Part shown: in pieces, positions 1,883-34,729 of the stretch
Layout of the letters: each line of letters starts with the position of its first letter
How positions within the stretch are numbered: position 1 is the stretch's first letter
Notes under the pieces: generated by a model
The model's input: only the letters and a program-made list of their open reading frames with translations
What the model was told of the DNA's origin: nothing
Database searches by the model: none
Made by a program: the position numbers and the translations under genes
From: a virus
Direction: 5' to 3' (one strand)
IMG/VR virus record: IMGVR_UViG_3300035158_000277
Span: 1-34,729 of that record
Length of the DNA: 34,729 nucleotides

Positions 1883-1895
1883 CCGATCGGATCCT

Positions 1896-1903
1896 TACAT
1901 GTA
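1896..1903. promoter_or_regulatory. TACATGTA palindrome upstream of major tail protein
   Basis: An exact copy of the TACNNGTA motif, extended to TTACATGTATATA, sits in the 67-base gap before the major tail protein gene. It is bracketed by two GGATCC sequences (1889 and 1908). It belongs to the genome-wide motif family described under the array at 16061-16783. Confidence 0.7.
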
Positions 1904-1949
1904 TATAGGATCCTGTGGGCTGATAACAATTATGAGGAGGTAAGCAATT

Positions 1950-2971: not shown

Positions 2972-3013
2972 TAGAGGACCCGAGTACATTACAGGTATAG
3001 GCGACGTCCTCTA
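2972..3013 (+). promoter_or_regulatory. Hairpin carrying a TACAGGTA motif in its loop
   Basis: TAGAGGAC (2972-2979) and GTCCTCTA (3006-3013) form a perfect 8-bp stem. The 26-base loop contains TACAGGTA (2990-2997), and AACATGTA follows at 3015-3022, shortly before the ribosome site of the chaperone gene. The stem, loop and motif are seen directly. A role as an operator, or as a partial terminator lowering chaperone expression below that of the tail-tube gene, is inference. Confidence 0.6.
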
Positions 3014-3045
3014 TAACATGTAACCGAGAGGAGAAACAGGGACCA

Positions 3046-9049: not shown

Positions 9050-9115
9050 GATACCGATAAAGGAATACCTGTAAAGCTCCGTATCACTTTACAGACATTC
9101 CGAGCCGGCGGTATC
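9050..9115 (+). promoter_or_regulatory. Long imperfect hairpin with TACCTGTA in one arm
   Basis: Three nested stems pair in order: GATACCG (9050-9056) with CGGTATC (9109-9115), GGAAT (9062-9066) with ATTCC (9097-9101), and TGTAAAG (9070-9076) with CTTTACA (9087-9093). TACCTGTA (9066-9073) lies in the left arm. There is no T-tract. It may act as a terminator-like or operator structure between the exported protein and the lysis genes. Confidence 0.5.
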
Positions 9116-9116
9116 T

Positions 9117-9200
9117 TACATGTATGGAGAGGATCCGGGGATTACAGGTAAGGCGGGACCTGGATTACCTGTATCGATTGGCTGCCGGCTAAAACATGTA
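9117..9200. promoter_or_regulatory. Cluster of four TACNNGTA-family sites before the holin gene
   Basis: TACATGTA (9117-9124), TACAGGTA (9143-9150), TACCTGTA (9166-9173) and AACATGTA (9193-9200) lie in 84 bases, following TACCTGTA at 9066. The last one is followed at once by the holin ribosome site. The segment 9182-9211 resembles 9786-9815 in front of the amidase (24 of 30 bases equal). The sites are seen directly; binding by a regulator that holds lysis genes off is inference. Confidence 0.65.
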
Positions 9201-9225
9201 ACCCGCTCGAGTGAAGGAGGCAAGA

Positions 9226-9681
9226 ATGAGCATCCTGGGATTGGCTTTCGGGGAGATCTATGCCGCGGACATCTTTGGAACGATCTTCACCTGGATCTTT
9301 GAGAAATTCGTTGTCGGAGCTTACGAGCAGCCGATTGTCGCTCTCATTCTTTTGGTCATGGGGTGGGTGGTTAAGCAGTATCTCATTCCCTGGCTGAATA
9401 CGGATCAGAAGAGAAAGTATGCCGAGCTTGTTTGCCAACTCGCCGATGAAGTGACGGACGATCTCGTAGATCAGCATCCAAACGAGAAGTGGGACGATTA
9501 TCTAAACGACGGCGTAGACAAGCTGATGGAGCTTTTGGGGATCCCTAAACGGATACCGGAGGGACCCGCAGGAGCAAAGGTTAAGAGGAAACACGAAATG
9601 GCAAGCCGGGCCATGCGAGCAGCGAAGGCAAGAAGAGAACATACGACCACCTGGTCACCTGGTCCCACCGGGTCGGGGTAA
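9226..9681 (+). CDS. Holin-like membrane protein
   Basis: Start is ATG 9226, five bases after AAGGAGG, giving 151 aa. Residues about 3-35 are hydrophobic with aromatic residues (LGLAFGEIYAADIFGTIFTWIFEKF), and 38-58 (PIVALILLVMGWVVKQYLIPWL) form a clear transmembrane helix. A soluble region (KYAELVCQLADEVTDDLVDQHP ... VDKLMELLGI) resembles that of LLH-type phage holins. The tail is basic (AKVKRKHEMASRAMRAAKARREH), as is usual for holins. It stands one gene before the amidase, the usual lysis pairing. Holin function would be to open the inner membrane to the amidase, which has no signal peptide. Confidence comes from topology and neighbourhood. Confidence 0.6.
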   Translation: MSILGLAFGEIYAADIFGTIFTWIFEKFVVGAYEQPIVALILLVMGWVVKQYLIPWLNTDQKRKYAELVCQLADEVTDDLVDQHPNEKWDDYLNDGVDKLMELLGIPKRIPEGPAGAKVKRKHEMASRAMRAAKARREHTTTWSPGPTGSG

Positions 9682-9743
9682 TCTCCGCCCTAACCCGTGG
9701 CCGGCAGGATACGGAGCTTCTGGAGGGGGGCTCCGGATCCACA

Positions 9744-9806
9744 TACTTGTAAAGGATATGGCCAGGTCGGATACTTGTAAGACCTGGCAGCCGGCTTAAA
9801 CTTGTA
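9744..9806. promoter_or_regulatory. Three TACTTGTA/AACTTGTA sites, one in a hairpin loop, before the amidase
   Basis: TACTTGTA at 9744-9751, TACTTGTA at 9772-9779 and AACTTGTA at 9799-9806 fill the 147-base gap. The middle copy occupies the 12-base loop of a perfect 8-bp hairpin, GCCAGGTC (9761-9768) with GACCTGGC (9781-9788). The arrangement repeats at 27123-27148. No sigma70 promoter could be seen here. Confidence 0.65.
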
Positions 9807-9828
9807 AAGTGCTCGAGAGGGGGATCGA

Positions 9829-10320
9829 TTGAGAGCACTCGATAAGATCTACATTCATTGTTCTGCAGGACCGAGAGGAGACCTGGATTACATCCGGAGA
9901 CTCCATACGGATCCTAAGCCGAAAGGCAACGGCTGGAGCCATATCGGCTATCACTTCGTTATAGGGAACGGCTTTCCTACTTACGAATCCTGGAGGACCC
10001 AGAATTATCAAAAGAGCAGCGACGGAAAACTCTGGATTGGACTTCCGCTCGGAACGGAAGGGATCCAGGTTAGATGGGATAACCGGACCTCCATCGGGAT
10101 CTGTCTTATCGGAAATCAGCGGTTCACTCTCAGACAGTTTCAAACTCTGGCGAAGCTCTGTAGAGATCTGGTCCATGGACAGGGGATCAATCCCCAGATG
10201 ATTCTTGGCCATCGGGAATACTGGATCCTCAAGGGCAAGCCAACAAAAAAGACCTGTCCCAATTTTGATATGGATTGGTTCAGGGGATACGTAAAACAGA
10301 TTCTTTGGGAGGGAAGATGA
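9829..10320 (+). CDS. N-acetylmuramoyl-L-alanine amidase (endolysin, T7 lysozyme-like)
   Basis: The 163-aa protein has the full Amidase_2/PGRP fold signature and cuts the bond between N-acetylmuramic acid and L-alanine in peptidoglycan. Zinc ligands are visible as His10 (IHCSA), His128 (LGHRE) and Cys143 (KKTCPNF). Lys141, two residues before the Cys, and Tyr41 (IGYHF) match the catalytic Lys and Tyr of T7 lysozyme. GICLIGN supplies the core strand. The length is that of single-domain T7-type enzymes; no cell-wall-binding domain or signal peptide is present, so export would need the holin. The start is TTG 9829 after GAGAGGGGG. Confidence 0.92.
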   Translation: MRALDKIYIHCSAGPRGDLDYIRRLHTDPKPKGNGWSHIGYHFVIGNGFPTYESWRTQNYQKSSDGKLWIGLPLGTEGIQVRWDNRTSIGICLIGNQRFTLRQFQTLAKLCRDLVHGQGINPQMILGHREYWILKGKPTKKTCPNFDMDWFRGYVKQILWEGR

Positions 10321-12963: not shown

Positions 12964-13228
12964 AATCAAGACATTTCTGCCGGCTCTGATAATCGCCGGC
13001 CTACTTTTGGCTTTACTATCAGCGGACGCTTATCCTATGCGAGTCAAGGGTAGCTGGAGATTTAAGAGCGACTTTTCTAAAAATTGGAGGTTTCAAAAAC
13101 AGGAGGAGGTAACGGTCCCAGAGTTTGCCAGACTGTACGATAACGGAGCTTACTGGCGGAGCTATCAAAACGGAACCCATAACCAACTTTATAGGAGGTT
13201 GAATAAAGATGCATGGAAGCAGCCTTAA
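12944..13228 (+). CDS. Small exported protein of unknown function
   Basis: A 94-aa product starting at ATG 12944, overlapping the deacetylase gene end by 20 bases and itself overlapped by the next gene. Residues about 10-30 (FLPALIIAGLLLALLSADAY) form a signal peptide or membrane anchor with likely cleavage after DAY. The mature part is short, basic and aromatic (GSWRFKSDFSKNWRFQKQ, YWRSYQNGTHNQLYRR). No family is recognised. It belongs to the exported operon 10317-15589. Confidence 0.5.
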   Translation: MKITAFRIKTFLPALIIAGLLLALLSADAYPMRVKGSWRFKSDFSKNWRFQKQEEVTVPEFARLYDNGAYWRSYQNGTHNQLYRRLNKDAWKQP

Positions 13229-14483
13229 AGAACAGATCCGGAATGTAGTCATGCTGTCCTTCTGTATTGTACTGATTTTGAGCGTGGTGGCTTACGCTTT
13301 CAATCGGACTTTTGGACCGGACTTCATTTCCGGAGAGGGTTTGGTTACCAGGGGAACTGGAGACGGAAAGGATTCAGTGCACGTCCAACTCGGATATGGA
13401 ATGTACTTCGACGGGGATACGGTAAAGTGGTCTTTGATCGATTGGAGCGATAGCGTGGTAACCATCCACTCGGCCCAGACGATCTCCGGAGCAAAAACCT
13501 TTTCAGCCTTAATCACCGGGACAAACGGATTGACCATTAACGCCGCGACGGTGGACTTTACCGGGGCGACGGTGACTCTGGGAACCGACGCAATCCAGAC
13601 GGCCGAGATCCAGGACGCACAGGTGGCTTGGGCAAAACTGACCTCCGCGGTTCAGGACAGCATCGACAAGCCGCGGTTTCAGTGGAAGGAAGATACAGAG
13701 GGGACCTATCGATACGGGACTCCGATCCGCTTTCAGGAAAGTACGAACATGACCATAACGGTGACGGACCACGCCGGGGATTCGGCTACGATCGCCTTTC
13801 AATCTGCCGGCGGTGCGGTGTGGCCCGGTTGGCATGAAGCGGATCAGACAAACACCCTGGACACTCTCGTTTTCAAAGAAGGTTACGGGATAAACATTAC
13901 GCAGATCACCGGGACCAACGCGGATACAATCCATGTGGAGATAGACAGCGCGGTGATGAAAAGTCTGCTAACGGTCCAGGATTTCTCCGTCCTCCATTAC
14001 AACGCCAACGCCGGAGGGATTGAGGATTCTGTGGAAATCATCTGGCCCGTATCCGGTAAGTATGGGGCGGTGACTCATTCGAATCTGGTCCGGGTGATTA
14101 ACACATCGGAAGAGGACGCGCAGTTGTGCACGTTAGAATTTGATGGTGATCGTCCAATGGGATTTGTGGGTGACTGCGATTCAATTACGCTGGATGTGAT
14201 CCGAACCTCTACGGCATCCACAACGGATGCTTATGCGAAGCTGATCTTTTACGGGATGACAACAGGCGGAGGTTATCCGGATGAGGATACGGTGAAGTAT
14301 ACCGGGAGTGCGACGGCCAGTGCGAGCGCGGGATTGCCTTCGCAGCTATCGGTAGCCGGCGGAAGCATTGGACCAATCGGGACGGGAGCTCGTCTCTTGG
14401 CAAAGGTAGAGGTCATGGTGGATCCTGCCGATACTTGCGATGTCAAGGGAAGAATCAAAGTATGGGGAGACCGGACCTACTAA
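13209..14483 (+). CDS. Tail-fibre-like protein with N-terminal membrane segment
   Basis: The 424-aa product starts at ATG 13209, ten bases after AGGAGG. Residues about 11-30 (NVVMLSFCIVLILSVVAYAF) are a membrane segment. The remainder resembles phage tail fibres: GEGLVTRGTGDGKDSVHVQLGYG near 40-65, then AQTISGAKTFSALITGTNG near 95-115, a motif common in fibre shafts, and AEIQDAQVAWAKL near 137-150. The C-terminal third is beta-rich with Gly/Ser-rich loops (GSATASASAGLPSQLSVAGGS) and might bind a receptor. Fibre proteins are assembled in the cytoplasm and do not carry export signals, so this signal is unexpected and is shared with its neighbours. Confidence 0.6.
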   Translation: MHGSSLKEQIRNVVMLSFCIVLILSVVAYAFNRTFGPDFISGEGLVTRGTGDGKDSVHVQLGYGMYFDGDTVKWSLIDWSDSVVTIHSAQTISGAKTFSALITGTNGLTINAATVDFTGATVTLGTDAIQTAEIQDAQVAWAKLTSAVQDSIDKPRFQWKEDTEGTYRYGTPIRFQESTNMTITVTDHAGDSATIAFQSAGGAVWPGWHEADQTNTLDTLVFKEGYGINITQITGTNADTIHVEIDSAVMKSLLTVQDFSVLHYNANAGGIEDSVEIIWPVSGKYGAVTHSNLVRVINTSEEDAQLCTLEFDGDRPMGFVGDCDSITLDVIRTSTASTTDAYAKLIFYGMTTGGGYPDEDTVKYTGSATASASAGLPSQLSVAGGSIGPIGTGARLLAKVEVMVDPADTCDVKGRIKVWGDRTY

Positions 14484-15605: not shown

Positions 15606-15813
15606 GATCAGTACCTGGAGTCCTCAGCATAGCTGGCTCTCATTCTCCAGGGGCTCCACGCTGCGCAAACCTCCACCTACTCATATATCCAGCCTATCCC
15701 TGAAAGTCGCTCTACGAGGCTCTAATCGCTTCGGTTTACCAGTATAGCGGCGCCCAGGGGGCAATTTGTCTCAGAGGCTCCGGATTCCGGTCTTCGAAGG
15801 GATCCCTAAAAGG

Positions 15814-15960
15814 TTCTCCACAAAGCTTTAACAGGGTTGTCCACATGTTTTCAACACCTATGGACAACTTCAGAGGTTGCGGGATAAGGGGTTAGGGAAG
15901 TGCTCAACATTTCCACAGAGGTTATTGTTATTATTGGTTTTTTATCTTTTGATTTTAAGA
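15814..15960. other. Candidate replication origin: DnaA-box-like sites plus AT-rich tract
   Basis: TTCTCCACA (15814-15822) and TTGTCCACA (15837-15845) each differ by one base from the DnaA box TTATCCACA. TATGGACAA (15859-15867, reverse orientation) and ATTTCCACA (15909-15917) differ by two. GTTGTCCA and TGGACAAC form an inverted repeat (15836-15868). Directly after lies an AT-rich stretch (15919-15960) containing TTATTGTTATTATTGG that could unwind. The phage shows no helicase, primase or polymerase, so host initiation at such a site is plausible. Box similarity is seen; origin function is inference. Confidence 0.45.
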
Positions 15961-15995: not shown

Positions 15996-16025
15996 AAAAA
16001 TTTCGCGCGCGCCGAAGTTTTTTTT
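15996..16025 (+). terminator. Intrinsic terminator
   Basis: AAAAATTTCG (15996-16005) pairs with CGAAGTTTTT (16013-16022) with one T-G wobble, closing a CGCGCGC loop, and is followed by the rest of an 8-T run (16018-16025). The A-run on the left gives a shorter T-tract on the minus strand, so it may work in both directions. It would stop transcription coming from the exported-protein operon before the array. Confidence 0.7.
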
Positions 16026-16119
16026 GATCAGGAGGATCCCCAGGATTGAGCTCATTTCTATACATGTACTGGCCGACGTCACCTATACCCGTTTCCGATC
16101 TATTGCATGTAGGATCCAC

Positions 16120-16155
16120 CAGGTGGGCTATACTTGTATTTGACCTGGCCACCTG
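16120..16155 (+). promoter_or_regulatory. Hairpin with TACTTGTA in the loop
   Basis: CAGGTGG (16120-16126) pairs with CCACCTG (16149-16155); CCAGGT/ACCTGG just offset offers an alternative pairing. The TACTTGTA site (16131-16138) is in the loop. This repeats the arrangement at 2972-3013, 9761-9788 and 27123-27148. Confidence 0.5.
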
Positions 16156-16644
16156 CTATACATGTTAAAGATCGATCGCGTTTCCGGACCCGGTTCACCA
16201 TAGGGATATCGAATACAAGTATCTGCCGGCAGCCAAGTCTTACCTGTAAGAGAGTGGAGCTTACTGCAGGACGAATACCTGTAAGAGTCCGCTGCGGGAT
16301 CTCTCAGCGGGGCAATACCTGTAAACGTGGCCACGTCGAAAGGACCCGGATCCTCCAGGAGGAGTTTACCGGTAAGCTCCGCAGCGGGGGGATCCACAAT
16401 TTACGAATTCGCGGATTTGTAAATTCCGGTTCTCCGCTGCGGAATCCGTCCGGGAAGGAGACTTGTATCCGCTGGGCCCTCGGCATACCTGTAAGCCTCC
16501 GCGGCGGATCCCTCCGGAAAGCAAACATGTAAGGGACCCGGGTTCAAAACAGGTATTGGGCGGAATCCGGATCCCAAAAGCTATACATGTGAGAGATCGA
16601 TGCCGATACAGGTAAGTCTCCTGCAGGAGATCTCCCAGAGAGGA

Positions 16645-16678
16645 TCCTGCCGGCGACGTTCATACCTGTATCGGAGGA
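16645..16678 (+). repeat. 34-bp perfect direct repeat, copy 1
   Basis: The segment from TCCTGCCGGCG to TCGGAGGA, containing TACCTGTA (16663-16670), recurs without change at 34114-34147. It is the longest exact repeat noticed outside the contig ends and an internal gene duplication. The flanks differ. It shows that more than the 8-bp core is conserved in these two sites. Confidence 0.85.
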
Positions 16679-16775
16679 GCTGCTCGGCGGATACAGGTAA
16701 AGAGGATCCCCAGGAGATCCCCAAAGGACCATATTCCGGAAATCCGCTGTCTTGCATAGGATTAAGTCAAACGAA

Positions 16776-16802
16776 TACATGTATAGCTACGTATCATATT
16801 AT
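16776..16802 (+). promoter_or_regulatory. Promoter-like sequence: TACATGTA over the -35 position, TATTAT -10
   Basis: TACATGTA (16776-16783) is followed by TATTAT (16797-16802). With a 17-base spacer the -35 hexamer would be AATACA, sharing only ACA with TTGACA. The same design, with a 12-base instead of 13-base gap and shared TATTATAGG, occurs at 26244-26271. Such a weak -35 covered by a palindrome suggests a regulated promoter for the early operon that starts at 16846. Confidence 0.55.
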
Positions 16803-17154: not shown

Positions 17155-17163
17155 AGATCCAAT

Positions 17164-17218
17164 CCCACCTTGAAAAGTCCGTAGGGACGAAACGCCGGAG
17201 AGATCCGGCGTCGATGGG
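17164..17218 (+). ncRNA. Hammerhead-ribozyme-like three-way junction
   Basis: In the 82-base gap between two genes the + strand can fold as follows. Stem I is CCCACC (17164-17169) with GATGGG (17213-17218), with one C/A mismatch. Junction TTGAAAA (17170-17176). Stem II is GTCC/GGAC with loop GTAG (17177-17188). Junction GAA (17189-17191). Stem III is ACGCCGGA/TCCGGCGT with a GAGA loop (17192-17211). A single C (17212) closes it. Junction lengths 7/3/1, G10.1-C11.1, G12A13A14, A15.1-U16.1 and C17 match the type I hammerhead. The core has U3 and A8 in place of C3 and G8, a paired change. Cleavage would fall after 17212. Activity is not proven. Confidence 0.45.
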
Positions 17219-17236
17219 CAAACACAGGGAGGAGAT

Positions 17237-17468: not shown

Positions 17469-17783
17469 ATGGGTACAAGGTTTGAGACAAGAGGGCAAGA
17501 AACCAAAGCCGTCAAGGAAGCTCTTCAGAAAGCCGGCATAAATGCCAGGGTGACCCACGGAAAAGGAACGGCTTGGGGATGGTTACAAATTAACATCGGA
17601 GCCGGCCAGGACTTCGGAGAGCATGAGAAAGGGGATCGACACACTCTTTGCCGGTCGGATTGTCCCAGGTGCGTAGGGATCCGGAGTATGAGGTCCCACA
17701 CTTTCACGTCAGGGAATGGCGAGAAGTCGGAGAGGAGATCCGGGCTGGCGGGACCTACTAAAAAAAAGCAATTTTTCTCTTGA
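17469..17783 (+). CDS. Small hypothetical protein, C-terminal half possibly out of frame
   Basis: The 104-aa frame starts well (GGGAGGAAC before ATG) with RFETRGQETKAVKEALQKAG and ARVTHGKGTAWGWLQINIG, a pattern seen in small phage and plasmid proteins (possibly LPD29-like). After about residue 55 it becomes Arg/Ser-rich and runs into a promoter. Over 17669-17760 the frame shifted by -1 gives a much more protein-like end, VRRDPEYEVPHFHVREW, closing at TAA 17758-17760. A small indel, a frameshift, or a second tiny gene would explain this. No classical slippery heptamer was seen. Confidence 0.5.
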   Translation: MGTRFETRGQETKAVKEALQKAGINARVTHGKGTAWGWLQINIGAGQDFGEHEKGDRHTLCRSDCPRCVGIRSMRSHTFTSGNGEKSERRSGLAGPTKKKQFFS

Positions 17784-17808
17784 CAAGTATAGAAACCTGT
17801 ATTATCAT
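17780..17808 (+). promoter_or_regulatory. Sigma70-type promoter with AACCTGTA in the spacer
   Basis: TTGACA (17780-17785), a 17-base spacer and TATCAT (17803-17808) form a strong promoter. The -35 overlaps GACAAGTA (17782-17789) and the spacer holds AACCTGTA (17794-17801), both one base off TACNNGTA. A protein bound to either would block RNA polymerase, which supports the idea that the motif is an operator. It should drive the zinc-ribbon and RecT genes. Confidence 0.75.
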
Positions 17809-20587: not shown

Positions 20588-20818
20588 ATGCCAGTAGAAC
20601 ACAAGATCCCAGATTACCAGGTTAAGGCTTTCCCTGGTAACAAGAGCTTTACAGTCCGGCGAATAGAAGTGGAGAAAGCGGAGGGATTGGTCGAGGACGT
20701 AGTTAGGGTAAAGCTCTGGAGCCGGACCAAAGGAAAGGATCCTCCGTTCTATCTGATGGGCAAAAGAGAAAACGTCCGAAATATGGTCCACAATCTGCTC
20801 GTGCTGCTTAACCTGTAA
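20588..20818 (+). CDS. Small hypothetical protein
   Basis: A 76-aa product from ATG 20588 with AGGGGAAA before it. Its last codons AAC CTG TAA form the AACCTGTAA version of the palindrome, so coding and site overlap. It is beta-like in the middle (AFPGNKSFTVRRIEVEKAEG) and helical at the end. Unknown function. Confidence 0.5.
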   Translation: MPVEHKIPDYQVKAFPGNKSFTVRRIEVEKAEGLVEDVVRVKLWSRTKGKDPPFYLMGKRENVRNMVHNLLVLLNL

Positions 20819-20852
20819 GTGACCCGGGCGCATTACTTGTAAAGGTGGATCT

Positions 20853-21266
20853 GTGACTGAAAGACGAATTAAGTTTGAGATCTCCGCTCGTCTCCCATCA
20901 TATCACGAATTAACCGGAGGAAGAAACTGGAAGATTCGGACAGCCATTAAGAGAGAATTTATGACTACCTTTTTTTATGGTATCAAAGAGGGGATCCAAT
21001 CAGCCAGCTTTCGTGCTCCCAGGAATCCAGCCTACTTTCAAAGCCGGGTCCTGGTGCATCTGAAAATCTTCGGCAGATGGCGCGGACCTCCAGACAGAGA
21101 TAATTATATTCAGTCAGCCGGCAAGCTCATTGTGGACCAACTGTTCGACACAAGAACCCGCAGGGCAGCGGTTCGCCTTTTGCTCGATGATAGATTCGTA
21201 GAATGGGGAACGGTGGAATTCGAGCAAGGAGATCCGAAGGTTGAGGTAATCCTTCAGGAGATTTGA
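20853..21266 (+). CDS. rusA: RusA-family Holliday junction resolvase
   Basis: The 137-aa product starts at GTG 20853 after AAAGGTGG and TACTTGTA (20834-20841). It carries the RusA pattern: PPDRDNYIQSAGKLIVDQLF at about 77-97 (the DxDN..K..D catalytic block, here with Asp80, Asp82 and Asp94 as acidic residues) and LLLDDRFVEWGTVEFEQGDP near 110-130. RusA cuts four-way DNA junctions symmetrically. Length is slightly above the usual 120. It would resolve intermediates made by the RecT protein before packaging. Confidence 0.85.
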   Translation: MTERRIKFEISARLPSYHELTGGRNWKIRTAIKREFMTTFFYGIKEGIQSASFRAPRNPAYFQSRVLVHLKIFGRWRGPPDRDNYIQSAGKLIVDQLFDTRTRRAAVRLLLDDRFVEWGTVEFEQGDPKVEVILQEI

Positions 21267-21279
21267 AAGAGAGGGAGAC

Positions 21280-21483
21280 ATGGGAAGGAAAAGGTCGAGA
21301 TTCAATCCAAGTAAGTGCCCGATCTGTGGATGCAAACAAGCGAGAGCCGTAGCGGTGGCCACGTTGACCCGGCTACAAAAGGTAGAGCAGATACTTTACG
21401 CATGTGCGAGGCCCGGCTGTCCTCAGAAATATTGGTATATTCCCAGAGCTCTGAAGAATAAGATCATTCTGGCGGAGCGATGA
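21280..21483 (+). CDS. Zinc-ribbon protein, Ogr/Delta-like
   Basis: A 67-aa basic product. CPICGC at about residue 13 is followed 25 residues later by CARPGC, giving C-x2-C-x25-C-x4-C. This spacing resembles Ogr/Delta zinc-finger proteins of P2-type phages (C-x2-C, about 22-24 residues, C-x4-C), which activate late promoters by contacting RNA polymerase. If the likeness is real, this is a candidate for the protein that reads the dispersed regulatory sites, but the P2 site (TGT-N12-ACA) is not the motif seen here. The next gene starts by an ATGA overlap. Confidence 0.55.
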   Translation: MGRKRSRFNPSKCPICGCKQARAVAVATLTRLQKVEQILYACARPGCPQKYWYIPRALKNKIILAER

Positions 21484-22028: not shown

Positions 22029-22104
22029 AAGCAAATGGAGGACCCACGATACACGTATCAAAACATGTAACACCTGGTGGATTCTGAGGGGAAGAAACGG
22101 AATC

Positions 22105-22185
22105 ATGCCTTACAAGAACTTCATTCACATAACCCTAAATTGGCGAGATCCTATACCTGTAGAGTTAGCTGCAGGAAACTTGTAA
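22105..22185 (+). CDS. Possible 26-codon leader peptide
   Basis: ATG 22105 after GAGGGGAAG opens MPYKNFIHITLNWRDPIPVE... ending at TAA 22183-22185. It spans the TACCTGTA site, and its last codons AAC TTG TAA are another site copy. It could be a leader or a chance frame. Confidence 0.25.
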   Translation: MPYKNFIHITLNWRDPIPVELAAGNL

Positions 22186-22209
22186 AGATCGTTCTGATCA
22201 GGACGATCT
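22186..22209. promoter_or_regulatory. 24-bp near-perfect palindrome
   Basis: AGATCGT, T, CTGATCAG, G, ACGATCT is a dyad with a single mismatched pair (T/G), framed one base away on each side by AACTTGTA and TACAGGTA. It lacks a T-tract. It may be a hairpin terminator or an operator for a different protein. Confidence 0.6.
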
Positions 22210-22243
22210 ATACAGGTACGGGATCCGGAAGGAGGTAAGAAGT

Positions 22244-24961: not shown

Positions 24962-24970
24962 AAAAAGTTC

Positions 24971-24999
24971 TTGACAAGGTGGAGAAGCCTAATTTATAT
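24971..24999 (+). promoter_or_regulatory. Sigma70-type promoter
   Basis: TTGACA (24971-24976), a 17-base spacer and TTATAT (24994-24999). A 6-bp dyad GTCTGT/ACAGAC (25002-25016) lies over the expected start point (about 25006) and could be an operator. This promoter faces the RNA element and the ParB-methyltransferase-radical SAM-terminase genes. Confidence 0.75.
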
Positions 25000-25026
25000 G
25001 GGTCTGTGAAACAGACACTTAACAGA

Positions 25027-25100
25027 GGCCCAGGCCGGCAGGATACTTCTCAGGCGAGCGTAAGCGCCATCTATTGAGAAGCATCGCAACGGCCTGGGCC
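25027..25100 (+). ncRNA. Structured RNA / riboswitch-like leader
   Basis: A 10-bp stem GGCCCAGGCC (25027-25036) with GGCCTGGGCC (25091-25100) encloses a symmetric 9 x 9 internal loop (25037-25045, 25082-25090), a 7-bp stem CTTCTCA (25046-25052) with TGAGAAG (25075-25081), a one-sided ATCTAT bulge, and a hairpin GGC-(GA)-GC capped by a GTAA tetraloop (25053-25068). It begins about 20 bases after the predicted start of transcription and ends 24 bases before the ParB-like gene start. No terminator T-tract follows. It does not match a riboswitch or ribozyme class I can recall. Confidence 0.55.
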
Positions 25101-25123
25101 GTCTTACATCTGACGAGGGGAAG

Positions 25124-25678
25124 ATGAAACTACGCCAATTTTTAATCTCCGATCTAAAGTATCTGAGGGAAGATCCCAACGAAATGACCGCGGAGGAATT
25201 CCGGACTCTGAAGGATTTTCTGGCGGACGTTGGGATGGTGGATCCGATCGTAGTCAATCAGGATGGACTTGTGATCGGGGGAAAACACCGGTGTCGCGCC
25301 TGGACAGAATTAGGAAATAAAAAGATCCCCGGAGTAGAGGTCTATGTTCAGCCAGGCAAAGAGCAGAAGGTGGCTCTTGGACTCAATAAAATCAAAGGAC
25401 ATTGGAACGAGCCGAAACTTTTATCGGCATTGCAGCGGATAGCGACCGAGGATCCCTCCGCGGTCACGCTAACCGGTTTCAAAATGGGAGAAGTGCAAAG
25501 ACTTTCGGTCAGAAGTTTTGGGGTAGGGAGATTGACGGAGGTCACAGATGAAGTCAGAGATTTCAAGAAGGTACACGTCCTATTCTCTATGTCGCCGAAA
25601 ATCTATCAAGCGGTCCAGGAGCTCCTAAAACAGATCGGAGATAAGGAAGGGGTGGAGGTTGAGCAGGGTGCAAACTGA
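25124..25678 (+). CDS. ParB/Srx-fold protein
   Basis: The 184-aa product has the N-terminal ParB domain: LRQFLISDLKYLREDPNEMTAEEF, then LADVGMVDPIVVNQDGLVIGGKHRCRAWTELG (about 36-67), where GGKHR matches the CTP/ATP-binding GxxR box, and VYVQPGKEQKVALGLNKIKGHW. It lacks the helix-turn-helix that would bind parS. Phage ParB-fold proteins of this size often stand beside methyltransferases and may act in DNA modification or as CTP/ATP-dependent switches. It is first in the operon after the RNA leader. Confidence 0.75.
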   Translation: MKLRQFLISDLKYLREDPNEMTAEEFRTLKDFLADVGMVDPIVVNQDGLVIGGKHRCRAWTELGNKKIPGVEVYVQPGKEQKVALGLNKIKGHWNEPKLLSALQRIATEDPSAVTLTGFKMGEVQRLSVRSFGVGRLTEVTDEVRDFKKVHVLFSMSPKIYQAVQELLKQIGDKEGVEVEQGAN

Positions 25679-26217: not shown

Positions 26218-26269
26218 TACCTGTATAACAAGGGACCACCGGATACATGTATAAGTCCGTATATATTAT
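26218..26269 (+). promoter_or_regulatory. TACCTGTA plus TACATGTA/TATTAT promoter-like sequence
   Basis: TACCTGTA (26218-26225) is followed by TACATGTA (26244-26251) and TATTAT (26264-26269). ATACATGTATA, a spacer of about nine bases and TATNATATTATAGG repeat the sequence at 16775-16804 with one base less. The two are the clearest candidates for a phage-specific promoter class. Confidence 0.55.
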
Positions 26270-26296
26270 AGGGGAAGAAACAGAAAGGATCCAGAC

Positions 26297-27106: not shown

Positions 27107-27122
27107 GAATACAAGTTTGCAG

Positions 27123-27148
27123 CCGGCTACGGTTACCTGTATAGCCGG
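27123..27148 (+). promoter_or_regulatory. Hairpin with TACCTGTA in a 12-base loop
   Basis: CCGGCTA (27123-27129) pairs with TAGCCGG (27142-27148); the loop ends in TACCTGTA (27134-27141). Size and design equal 9761-9788. A near site, TACAAGTT, lies at 27110-27117. It stands ahead of the terminase genes. Confidence 0.6.
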
Positions 27149-31338: not shown

Positions 31339-33705
31339 ATGGCCAACAGAATTCAAGTCCCACGTTTTCGGGATGGATTGGACCTCCGTTCGGTATTGGG
31401 AAAGGTGGAATTCAAACCGGAGGAAACGGAGGACTGGATCCACATACCGGTTGACGATAAAGACAAATTCGATCCGGACACATTTAAACACGTCTGGCTC
31501 TCCGAGGAGAAGGGAATCGCATCCGTCCAGGGGAAGTATACTGGAGAGGATACGATGAAGGTATACAAGCTGATGTTTGACAAGTCGAAGGGCTGGACCA
31601 TGGATTCCGCGAAGGAGTGGGCGCGGGATCATGATTTCACCCCAAAAGCGATCTGGGACGGACCAATAGATGGTCGGGTGGTCCCGCAGCGGAGCGCACC
31701 GGTGGAGTTCAAAAGTATAGATTTTGCGACTCGGACCATCGAAGGATTCATTTCGACGGACGATCTGGACTGTTACAAAGATATAGTGGTCCCGACAGCT
31801 TTTGCCAAAGCGATCGATCCATACATGCGAAACCCGATAGTCTGCTACATGCATGATTGGTATCACGCCATCGGAAAGGTCCTGGCATTGGAGATCCAGG
31901 AGAAGGGACTATGGGGTAAGATCTTTATTTCGGAGACGGCGGAAATGATCTGGACGTTGATCGAGGAGGGGATCCTAAAGGCTTTCAGCTACAGTTACGA
32001 TTTCCCCAACGGCGACCAGGATTGGACCATGCACGGGGAGGTAAGAGTTATAAGCAACGTGGAGCTTCTGGAGACTTCAGTCGTTACCATACCGGCAAAT
32101 TCCTTCGCGCTCTTTGAACAGGCCAAAAGCAAAAGTATAGTGATCCCTGCACCATTCAATCAGATAAAGCTCTTTGGAGAAAGGAGGAGAGAGCCCGAGA
32201 AGAAAACAAAAACAGATGGAGGAGACAATCCCTCCAAAGAAGGCAAATCCAAAACTACCAAAGTGGAGGTTAAAGGTATGCCACCGAAAGACGATGAGAA
32301 ATTCGTAGCCGACGCAGCCTGGAAACGGTCCGTCGATGATGGGCTAAAGTTTCTGGGTGAAGTGAAGCCCCGACTGGAGCAACTGAAGGACGGTCCGTCA
32401 GAGGCGGATTGGGAACAGTACAAGGCCAACACGAAAGACGAGCTCCTGGAGCACGTCAAGAGTGTCAACAGGGAAACGCGACGGCTGGAGTTTCAAAGCT
32501 TCGCGGACAAGGATCCATACGTCAACACACCGGCTCTCCAGCATCCCCTTCTCTATCTCAAGAGGAAGCCGGTGGAGAAGTTTGCGGCCCTCCTGGGAAT
32601 CACCACCAAGGACCCGGCAGCGAAGAACGTCCAGGAAGCAGCCGACGATCTTCTGATTACCCACATGCTAATGAAGCGGCATGGCGAGAACTATCAAGGC
32701 ATGAAGAGCCTGGCCATGTTCGACCGTTACATGGAGGTATCAGAGGACTTCCGGAAGGCGATGGACACCGCAACGGCCACGGAAGGTCTGGAGTGGATCC
32801 CGACAGAACTCTCGGCGGATCTGATCGATCAGATAAGCTTGGAGTTGCGGGTGGCTGCTCTCTTCCGTAGGTTCTGGATGCCCACACCGGTTTTCAAGTT
32901 TCCGGTAAAGACGGGAGGATTCACCGTCTATTACCTATCGGAAGCGACTGCCGACGTGGACGAGAAGATCCCGACAAGCGACATCCCAACCGCGGACGTG
33001 ACGTTCACCGCTCGTAAGCTCGGAGGCCGTCTGTTGGTTTCCTCGGAGCTAACGGAGGATTCGATCGTGGCCGTTCTGCCGTTAATCAAAAAGGAGATCG
33101 TGGACGGTCTGGCCGACGGACAAGAGGACTGCATCATTAACGGGGATAGGAGTTCGACGCACCAGGACTCCGACGTGACCAATGCAAAGGACCGGAGAAA
33201 GGCGTTCGCCGGTCTGCGCAAGCTATGTCCTGCCGCGAGCTTTAGGGACGTGACCACTTACGATATAGCAGACCTCCGGGCAGTCCGAGCTCTGATGGGC
33301 AAATACGGAGTGGATCCCTCGAAGCTCTGTCACGTTATGAGCATCGGGGCGTACATGACAACCTTGAGCTTTTCGGAGGTCGCAACGGTGGACAAGTTCG
33401 GGGAGAAGGCGACCTGGCTTAAGGGGTATCTGTCAGCCATCGACGGAATTCCTATCGAGATCTCGGAGAAGGTCCGGGAGGATCTGAACGCCTCCGGAGT
33501 CTACGATGGAGTCACCACCACCAAGACCCTAACCATCCTGGTCCGCAAGGATGCTTATCTGATCGGTGACCGGAGGATGCCGACGGTCAAATCCGCTGCG
33601 AACATCGAGACGGACCAGGAGGTAACGGTGGTCACTCAGCGGATGGACTTCGAGAAGAAGTTTGCAGCCGCGGAGAAGGATGTCGCCATAAACTACAACG
33701 TCTAA
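31339..33705 (+). CDS. Prohead protease fused to HK97-type major capsid protein
   Basis: The 788-aa product starts at ATG 31339 after GAAGGAGAG. Residues 1-115 are an N-terminal domain (WIHIPVDDKDKFDPDTF, AKEWARDHDF). 120-270 is an S78 prohead protease (FATRTIEGFISTDDLD, YMHDWYHAIGKV with His about 171, GILKAFSYSYDF with Ser about 215, LLETSVVTIPANSFALFE). 275-420 is a charged linker and helical delta domain like a scaffold. 420-788 is the HK97-fold capsid (AALFRRFWMPTPVFKFPVKTGG, LGGRLLVSSELTEDSI, EDCIINGDRSSTHQDSDV). Protease would cut itself and the delta part away. An in-frame internal start at 32278 could also make the capsid part alone. Confidence 0.9.
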   Translation: MANRIQVPRFRDGLDLRSVLGKVEFKPEETEDWIHIPVDDKDKFDPDTFKHVWLSEEKGIASVQGKYTGEDTMKVYKLMFDKSKGWTMDSAKEWARDHDFTPKAIWDGPIDGRVVPQRSAPVEFKSIDFATRTIEGFISTDDLDCYKDIVVPTAFAKAIDPYMRNPIVCYMHDWYHAIGKVLALEIQEKGLWGKIFISETAEMIWTLIEEGILKAFSYSYDFPNGDQDWTMHGEVRVISNVELLETSVVTIPANSFALFEQAKSKSIVIPAPFNQIKLFGERRREPEKKTKTDGGDNPSKEGKSKTTKVEVKGMPPKDDEKFVADAAWKRSVDDGLKFLGEVKPRLEQLKDGPSEADWEQYKANTKDELLEHVKSVNRETRRLEFQSFADKDPYVNTPALQHPLLYLKRKPVEKFAALLGITTKDPAAKNVQEAADDLLITHMLMKRHGENYQGMKSLAMFDRYMEVSEDFRKAMDTATATEGLEWIPTELSADLIDQISLELRVAALFRRFWMPTPVFKFPVKTGGFTVYYLSEATADVDEKIPTSDIPTADVTFTARKLGGRLLVSSELTEDSIVAVLPLIKKEIVDGLADGQEDCIINGDRSSTHQDSDVTNAKDRRKAFAGLRKLCPAASFRDVTTYDIADLRAVRALMGKYGVDPSKLCHVMSIGAYMTTLSFSEVATVDKFGEKATWLKGYLSAIDGIPIEISEKVREDLNASGVYDGVTTTKTLTILVRKDAYLIGDRRMPTVKSAANIETDQEVTVVTQRMDFEKKFAAAEKDVAINYNV
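32278..33705 (+). CDS. Possible internally started major capsid protein
   Basis: ATG 32278 is codon 314 of the fusion, eight bases after GGAGG (32265-32269), and would yield 475 aa starting MPPKDDEKFVADAAWKRS: helical delta domain plus capsid. Hundreds of capsid subunits are needed for few proteases, so a second start with a good ribosome site makes sense, as with nested scaffold genes of lambda. Whether the site is used needs protein data. Confidence 0.5.
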   Translation: MPPKDDEKFVADAAWKRSVDDGLKFLGEVKPRLEQLKDGPSEADWEQYKANTKDELLEHVKSVNRETRRLEFQSFADKDPYVNTPALQHPLLYLKRKPVEKFAALLGITTKDPAAKNVQEAADDLLITHMLMKRHGENYQGMKSLAMFDRYMEVSEDFRKAMDTATATEGLEWIPTELSADLIDQISLELRVAALFRRFWMPTPVFKFPVKTGGFTVYYLSEATADVDEKIPTSDIPTADVTFTARKLGGRLLVSSELTEDSIVAVLPLIKKEIVDGLADGQEDCIINGDRSSTHQDSDVTNAKDRRKAFAGLRKLCPAASFRDVTTYDIADLRAVRALMGKYGVDPSKLCHVMSIGAYMTTLSFSEVATVDKFGEKATWLKGYLSAIDGIPIEISEKVREDLNASGVYDGVTTTKTLTILVRKDAYLIGDRRMPTVKSAANIETDQEVTVVTQRMDFEKKFAAAEKDVAINYNV

Positions 33706-33766
33706 ATCCAGGATCCGGATTTAGAGGTTGCGAACTCGAGACGCAAACATGTAACGAGGAGGAAGC

Positions 33767-34079: not shown

Positions 34080-34106
34080 CAGGGAGGGGATCAATTCCCC
34101 TCCCTG
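34080..34106 (+). terminator. Strong hairpin after the capsid genes
   Basis: CAGGGAGGGGA (34080-34090) pairs perfectly with TCCCCTCCCTG (34096-34106) around TCAAT. It is an 11-bp GC-rich stem with five-base loop, 20 bases behind the decoration gene. There is no T-run, so it may be a partial terminator or protect the 3' end of the abundant capsid message. Confidence 0.65.
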
Positions 34107-34113
34107 TAGATCC

Positions 34114-34147
34114 TCCTGCCGGCGACGTTCATACCTGTATCGGAGGA
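34114..34147 (+). repeat. 34-bp perfect direct repeat, copy 2
   Basis: Identical to 16645-16678 and contains TACCTGTA (34132-34139). Here it opens a cluster of four motif copies in a gap between structural genes. Confidence 0.85.
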
Positions 34148-34216
34148 TATCGACCAAAACCTGTAACGCTGGCCACGGATACAAGTAACGGAAGCGGATC
34201 CGGAACAATACATGTA
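34132..34216. promoter_or_regulatory. Four TACNNGTA-family sites between head genes
   Basis: TACCTGTA (34132-34139), AACCTGTA (34158-34165), TACAAGTA (34180-34187) and TACATGTA (34209-34216) lie in the 199-base gap that follows the capsid hairpin. No recognisable -10/-35 pair was seen, so these sites are not simply parts of promoters. Located just downstream of the strongest structural genes, they fit a role in stopping transcription. Confidence 0.65.
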
Positions 34217-34259
34217 AGGGATATCCGGATCCATCTTCAGAAAGGAAAGAGGACCTAAG

Positions 34260-34565: not shown

Positions 34566-34729
34566 ATGGCAGATCTCATTACGGATACAGAGCTAAAAGT
34601 ATACCTCCAGATCCCCGCGGACGAAGCGCAACATAAGGAGCTCCTGGGAAAACTTATCACTATGGGATCCGATTTCGTTCAGAAGTTCTGCGGTAGACTT
34701 TTCAAAGAGGAGGAGTTGACCGAGACTCT
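34566..34729 (+). CDS. Head-tail connector protein, 5' part (continues at position 2)
   Basis: The gene begins at ATG 34566, six bases after the upstream stop, and runs off the window; the frame continues at position 2 to the TAA at 527-529. Reading on gives MADLITDTELKVYLQIPADE, the true N-terminus of the connector. No separate ribosome site beyond GAGGAG inside the upstream stop region was found, so it is probably coupled to the previous gene. Confidence 0.8.
   Translation, partial: MADLITDTELKVYLQIPADEAQHKELLGKLITMGSDFVQKFCGRLFKEEELTET
34589..34729. repeat. Right copy of 141-bp terminal direct repeat
   Basis: Identical to 1-141. See the left copy. Confidence 0.9.

Follow-up and report, generated by a model that had tools for sequence, protein, structure and literature searches.

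The large non-coding region of this virus genome carries, at positions 16061 to 16783 (the hub), a dense array of the short dyad TACNNGTA, which we regard, with moderate confidence, as the densest station of a genome-wide network of operator- or stoperator-type sites for a dyad-binding regulator. In the following, an exact copy of this dyad is referred to as an A site and a copy with one mismatch as a near-A site; the window is the whole 34,729-bp virus record from IMG/VR. The window contains 33 A sites versus 2.9 expected, with a maximum of 8 in the 100 shuffles run as the control that an earlier note on this DNA had proposed. Our recount of the hub agreed with that note in finding 12 exact and 7 near copies, far above the approximately 0.06 exact copies expected there by chance. 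Among palindromes with 3-bp half-sites and a 2-bp center, TAC ranks second, after the GGA/TCC palindrome, which is common all over this genome. The 2-bp center matters, because TACNNNGTA, with its 3-base spacer, is not enriched (3 copies versus 2.4 expected). By the same count, host LexA (SOS) boxes of the Bdellovibrio type, TTAC-N3-GTAA, which have a three-base spacer (PMC8565304), do not fit.

Nearly all A sites lie between genes. Of the 33, 31 fall in the listed intergenic DNA, which comprises 2,451 bp, or 7.1% of the genome (binomial P ~1e-33), and the two located within genes (722 and 3582) match the chance expectation. Outside the hub, there are 19 exact A sites in intergenic DNA, distributed over most of the twelve listed gaps, including those between late genes. 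In two further gaps, a near-A site closely precedes a gene or a promoter (17794 and 33746), and the gaps at 17155-17236 and 24962-25123 have no A site. Often, there are 2 to 5 copies per gap, the final one usually 12 to 63 bp ahead of the start codon. The earlier note described the array as a central control element, which captures the hub as the densest station but is too narrow, because nearly every longer gap holds an A site, late-gene gaps included. The aligned sites share a 10-bp core, WTACNNGTAW, within the extended consensus SNWTACNNGTAWNS, with A/T only directly to the left of TAC, almost only A/T to the right of GTA, and G/C beyond. Distances between A sites are irregular (18 to 93 bp), and Tandem Repeats Finder detected no tandem repeat and no hub-wide iteron unit. 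The preservation of the core with a drifting center, the irregular spacing, and the near-confinement to intergenic DNA provide good support for the earlier proposal that the array consists of protein-binding dyads and is not a tandem repeat. An asymmetric variant, AACNTGTAAC, which may be a distinct element, has five exact matches, each of them on the + strand (3015, 9193, 22062, 33746, and 34158), some of them just upstream of a Shine-Dalgarno sequence.

Coordinates of A-site clusters, promoter-like and origin-like features, and genes in the window
Feature	Position	Strand	Remarks
DnaA-box-like cluster, four one-mismatch matches (15814, 15837, 15848, 15909)	15814-15917	+	
Outlying exact A site	15737-15744		Left part of large non-coding region
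Terminator-like inverted repeat AAAATTTCG...CGAAGTTTT with T8 tail	15996-16026	+	Left border of array
Hub array, A dyads with interleaved GC-rich B palindromes	16061-16783		Exact: 16061, 16131, 16214, 16241, 16276, 16316, 16367, 16486, 16607, 16663, 16692, 16776; one mismatch: 16086, 16104, 16159, 16460, 16524, 16548, 16584
A site (16776-16783), then promoter-like CGTATCATATTATAGG	16776-16802	+	Stretch common to 26244-26275
Best sigma-70-like promoter, TTGACA-17-TATCAT	17780-17808	+	
Gap site TACATGTA (1896), GGATCC on either side	1888-1912		Kept in L001
TACAGGTA - GACGTC - AACATGTA	2990-3024		L001: TACAAGTA - GACGTC - TACATGTA
Gap cluster, A sites 9066, 9117, 9143, 9166, 9193	9066-9202		Midpoint palindromes GGATCC, GGACC, GGCTGCC
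Gap cluster, A sites 9744, 9772, 9799	9744-9808		Midpoint palindromes TGGCCA, GGCAGCC
AACCTGTA - CCCGGG (exact midpoint) - TACTTGTA	20810-20841		Ahead of gene at 20853
Gap cluster, A sites 22050, 22062, 22154, 22177, 22211	22050-22218		Long palindrome around TGATCA; 22154, 22177, 22211 kept in L001
TACCTGTA and TACATGTA upstream of promoter-like TATATTATAGG	26218-26275		L001: TACAGGTA - TGGCCA - TACCTGTA
Near-A TACAAGTT, palindrome AGCCGGCT, A site TACCTGTA	27110-27141		Ahead of small-terminase gene; A site 27134 kept in L001 as TACAAGTA
Near-A AACATGTAAC	33746-33755	+	Just upstream of Shine-Dalgarno, 33767 gene; L001: AACATCTAAC
Gap cluster, A sites 34132, 34158, 34180, 34209	34132-34224		Palindromes GATATC, TGGCCA, CGGATCCG, GGATATCC
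RecT gene	18464		
ParB_N-like protein	25124-25678		Match to N-terminal domain only
Radical SAM protein gene	26297		
Small terminase gene	27166		
Large terminase gene	27539		
Portal gene	29230		
Head protease/major head protein gene	31339		

Scans of IMG/VR with TerL, RecT, portal, and major head protein revealed one close relative (L001 and L002, which are one contig; here L001). It shows ~80% DNA identity and covers positions 22.1 to 34.7 kb and 1 to 4.2 kb of the window, with the hub outside. As evidence against its reading, the earlier note had looked to relatives that keep the flanks and lose the cores. The seven gaps shared with L001 display the opposite, the TAC/GTA core being 94% identical, compared to 75% for the NN center and 74% for the other spacer. 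Changes of the center from the window to L001 include CT to AG at 26218, AT to CT at 26244, CT to AA at 27134, and AG to AA at 2990. A preserved core with the NN center at background is the pattern that a dyad contacted on its half-sites would be predicted to leave.

Few A sites coincide with recognizable promoters, and three promoter-like places (16776, 26244, and 17780-17808) have an A or near-A site. The stretches at 16776 and 26244 share the A site plus CGTAT(C)ATATTATAGG, and the 26-kb copy is kept in L001; judging from its sequence, the 16776-16802 stretch is probably an early promoter that an A site overlaps. In the 17780-17808 promoter, the near-A site AACCTGTA (17794-17801) lies directly upstream of the -10 element.

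Building on the enrichment, the gap location, and the conservation of A cores and of the B palindromes (see below) observed in one relative, we envisage that a DNA-binding protein of symmetric, probably dimeric, structure would recognize WTACNNGTAW in nearly all longer gaps. At the three promoter-like places, where the A site overlaps the region from -40 to -10, its binding would block or gate initiation, whereas in the remaining gaps the A site could form a roadblock or serve as a gap operator, in the manner of the stoperators of phage L5 or the SPBRE elements of SPbeta. In the hub, with its ~19 sites beside the DnaA-box-like cluster, many dimers might assemble and hold off early transcription and perhaps replication. 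Because the hub adjoins DnaA-box-like matches and AT-rich DNA, it may couple the control of both processes. The midpoint palindromes would mark the point at which two adjacent dimers come face to face across the DNA. Binding, dimer state, repression, and any role of the B palindromes are predictions made from sequence.

The second layer of the array, absent from the earlier note, consists of B palindromes, which vary in sequence (TGGCCA, GACGTC, GGATCC, CAGCTG, CCCGGG, GATATC, CTGATCAG, and GGGCCC, for example) and are centered ~10 to 16 bp from most A-site centers. They are found in 31 of 38 site flanks in the hub, 32 of 54 in the other gaps, and 17 of 26 in L001, as opposed to 7.3 ± 2.6, 8.9 ± 3.3, and 4.0 ± 2.2, respectively, when the spacers are resampled. 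A midpoint test, devised after the pattern had been seen, considered palindromes with arms of at least 3 between neighboring A pairs, near sites included. Of 38 such pairs from the window and L001 (the L001 pairs being partly orthologous), 19 had a palindrome exactly at the midpoint, and any other shift within 4 bp yielded one in at most 3 of the pairs. In the window alone, this is the case for 15 of 31 pairs (post hoc binomial P ~2e-14, palindromes having a local density of 3.4%). These are 7 of the 16 hub pairs and 8 of the 15 pairs outside the hub, and the A-A spacing of midpoint pairs varies from 22 to 38 bp. Pairs of exact sites form a smaller sample, because near sites lying between them split the pairs; a midpoint palindrome is found in 4 of 14, versus a total of 1 over the twelve other shifts. 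The B palindromes defined in the window are 92% conserved in L001 (109/118), a level that equals that of the TAC/GTA cores (94%) and exceeds that of the flanks (74%), and with palindromes defined in L001 the conservation is 86% versus 69%. The B sequence differs from locus to locus, some gaps sharing the same one (TGGCCA, GACGTC, GGATCC, or GCCGGC). In two gaps, the palindrome that L001 has at the equivalent position is not that of the window (GATATC/CAGCTG, in a gap that aligns poorly between the window and L001, and GGACC/TGGCCA).

Statistics and conservation thus establish the B layer, which is the truly odd part of the array and lacks a convincing mechanism. The operator network leaves it unexplained, since the B elements differ in sequence and are nonetheless palindromic and located at the exact midpoint at variable A-A spacing. 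We know of no operator system in which midpoint palindromes that vary between loci, yet are conserved at each locus, would be expected. As a tentative possibility, the A-B-A lattice might be a new control element in which fixed dyads alternate with sequence-free palindromes, selected for their symmetry and midpoint position. The symmetry could then be read by a second protein or involve DNA pairing (cruciform or palindrome-palindrome). What selects symmetry without sequence is a testable question.

A role in replication or partition, suggested in the earlier note, is unlikely. The hub would then be an iteron- or centromere-like array bound by an initiator, segregation, or copy-control protein, with the dispersed sites as secondary loading sites. 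Its 19 sites in ~720 bp would suit such an array, and directly to its left lies the DnaA-box-like cluster, which comprises 4 of the 37 such matches genome-wide within 104 bp, followed by AT-rich DNA to ~15960, and is, by its sequence, a likely replication origin. No replicase was recognized among the proteins scanned, which makes host-driven initiation plausible, and a ParB_N-like protein is encoded in the genome. However, that match covers the N-terminal domain only, and neither ParA nor a replication initiator was recognized among the proteins scanned. The hub has irregular spacing in place of the regular tandem direct repeats of an iteron origin, nearly all longer gaps hold the same sites, late genes included, and the GC skew keeps its sign at the hub and the DnaA-box-like cluster. 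The neighboring DnaA-box-like cluster is the only basis for the earlier suggestion. The inverted repeat at the left border of the array is a plausible terminator, found as an inverted repeat and not listed by the consensus terminator scan. In the left part of the non-coding region, there are also three copies of CTATCCCTAAAAG-like 13-mers (15580, 15694, and 15800), 106 to 114 bp apart.

It is quite unlikely that the array consists of spreading selfish palindromes (REP- or MITE-like), inverted-repeat units copied between gaps whose symmetry would be a relic of their origin. The exact midpoint position of B points to units that arose as inverted repeats, the same B recurs in several gaps, and an exact 32-bp copy, CTGCCGGCGACGTTCATACCTGTATCGGAGGA, is common to 16647-16678 in the hub and 34116-34147 in a late-gene gap. 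On the other hand, most units have only A in common, no transposase was recognized, and the complementarity of the stretches separating A from B is close to background (27/87, one long palindrome excluded). In a relic, B should therefore have lost its symmetry as well, whereas it is palindromic and conserved.

RNA-level elements, i.e., hairpins in a long + strand transcript that would serve in processing, stability, or attenuation, are very unlikely. Compared with dinucleotide shuffles, the hub does fold better, on either strand (z scores of -4.7 and -6.2), but its energy is unchanged when its blocks are permuted (-290.6 ± 6.6 after permutation versus -292.8), so there is no larger RNA design, and no Rfam family matches. 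Structured RNA in the hub can therefore be discarded, as can hairpins as the source of the symmetry: the A centers are complementary in only 3 of 22 midpoint pairs, the flanks are not complementary beyond background, and loopless six-bp palindromes cannot form hairpins. Clear hairpins do exist in other gaps, namely long ones in the late-gene gaps at 34083-34114 and 33703-33726, which are conserved in L001 and have no clear T tail.

Equally improbable are activator or phage-specific promoter elements, with the site recruiting RNA polymerase to each gene block via a phage activator such as the Ogr/Delta-like protein encoded at 21280-21483. The usual position of the last site in each gap, the presence of an A site in place of a good -35 element in the 16776 and 26244 stretches, and the orientation of all AACNTGTAAC variants along transcription would fit such a role; the symmetry of the site, its frequent 2 to 5 copies per gap, and its 19-fold occurrence in the hub do not. 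The Ogr/Delta activator sites of P2 and P4 have the form TGT-N12-ACA, a geometry that differs from that of the A site and is not enriched here (3 versus 4.0 expected). The 21280-21483 protein, a small zinc finger (CxxC...CxxxxC) that is weakly Ogr-like (Ogr_Delta match with a Pfam E value of 0.17, below the gathering score) and has a low-confidence structure model (pLDDT of 61), is a candidate late activator. The earlier note had named one of the zinc-ribbon proteins or the protein of 16846 as possible binders. The searches lend these candidates no real support, with a sub-threshold match for the 21280 zinc finger, no enrichment of Ogr-type sites, and no DNA-binding match for the 16846 protein; structure models of two candidate proteins were too weak or gave no match. 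No integrase, repressor, GntR-family protein, or other regulator was recognized by Pfam, PHROGs, and NCBIfam among the proteins scanned, a set that includes part of the small reading frames. For this reason, the binder may come from the host or have an unrecognized fold.

By analogy, the A sites would work like the dispersed operator networks of L5 (stoperators) and SPbeta (SPBRE/MrpR), with membership in no named system assigned. To our knowledge, such networks are known in few phage groups only. The Streptomyces phage phiC31 has conserved inverted repeats, symmetric operators dispersed between genes; the A sites resemble these in symmetry and location, but the phiC31 palindromes are longer, and we know of no alternating second palindrome layer in that phage. 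The stoperators of L5 and other cluster A mycobacteriophages are dispersed repressor sites, asymmetric and oriented with transcription, most of them off promoters and few at real promoters (PMC6550527). The intergenic location of the A sites and their rarity at recognizable promoters are similar. In contrast, the main site here is a symmetric 8- to 10-bp dyad, only the minor AACNTGTAAC variant being strand biased; the dyads occur 2 to 5 per gap and 19-fold in the hub, with a layer of palindromes interleaved, and the above scans recognized no cognate repressor. The SPBRE of the Bacillus phage SPbeta is a 15-bp motif found in about ten intergenic promoter regions and bound by MrpR, a protein with the tyrosine-recombinase fold; it had been proposed from sequence long before the protein was found (PMC10516654). 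The present sites likewise form a repeated element in many intergenic regions, but that study describes no dense array of SPBRE, and no protein of the MrpR fold was recognized in this phage. The DNase-footprinted box of the Escherichia coli regulator RspR, a host regulator with a single target, is ATACnnGTAT (PMC8249747). It matches the ATACNNGTAT dyad, with the same 2-bp center and a W flanking the core at either end. This match hints at a dimeric winged-helix protein, which may come from the host; however, the phage has no recognizable relative of RspR and no GntR-family protein among those scanned. The sites are numerous and conserved and have an unrecognized binding protein, so that the binder should be directly findable; with SPBRE and MrpR, sites found before the protein led to a new repressor.

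Positions 1 to 141 of the window are an exact direct terminal repeat of 34589-34729 (141 bp), and the L001 contig spans this junction; the genome is therefore probably complete, and it is probably circular or circularly permuted. All genes assigned here are on the + strand, including, besides those in the table, genes for a tail tube protein and an amidase. The 20853-21266 protein resembles by eye a RusA-type Holliday junction resolvase (GPPDRDNYIQSAGK...) and had no match in Pfam, NCBIfam, PDB, or phage tblastn searches. A tmRNA called by ARAGORN at 9561-10067 overlaps coding genes, has an atypical tag (VKDMARSDTCKTWQPA), and is probably spurious.

Portal relatives in bacterial genome contigs show no more than ~31% identity, and a distant viral contig (L127; 45% portal identity) lacks the array. 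Triple-site pattern searches of IMG/VR returned, among the matches listed, only coding-like repeats or regular tandem repeats, and none of the triple-site arrays screened had midpoint palindromes. The L204 record (IMGVR_UViG_3300009788_000242) contains 46 copies of TTCCGGAA versus 1.9 expected, several of them paired at a distance of 27 bp with a TTGACA on the reverse strand in between (e.g., 13195-13229); this resembles a network of phage operator pairs built on a different dyad.
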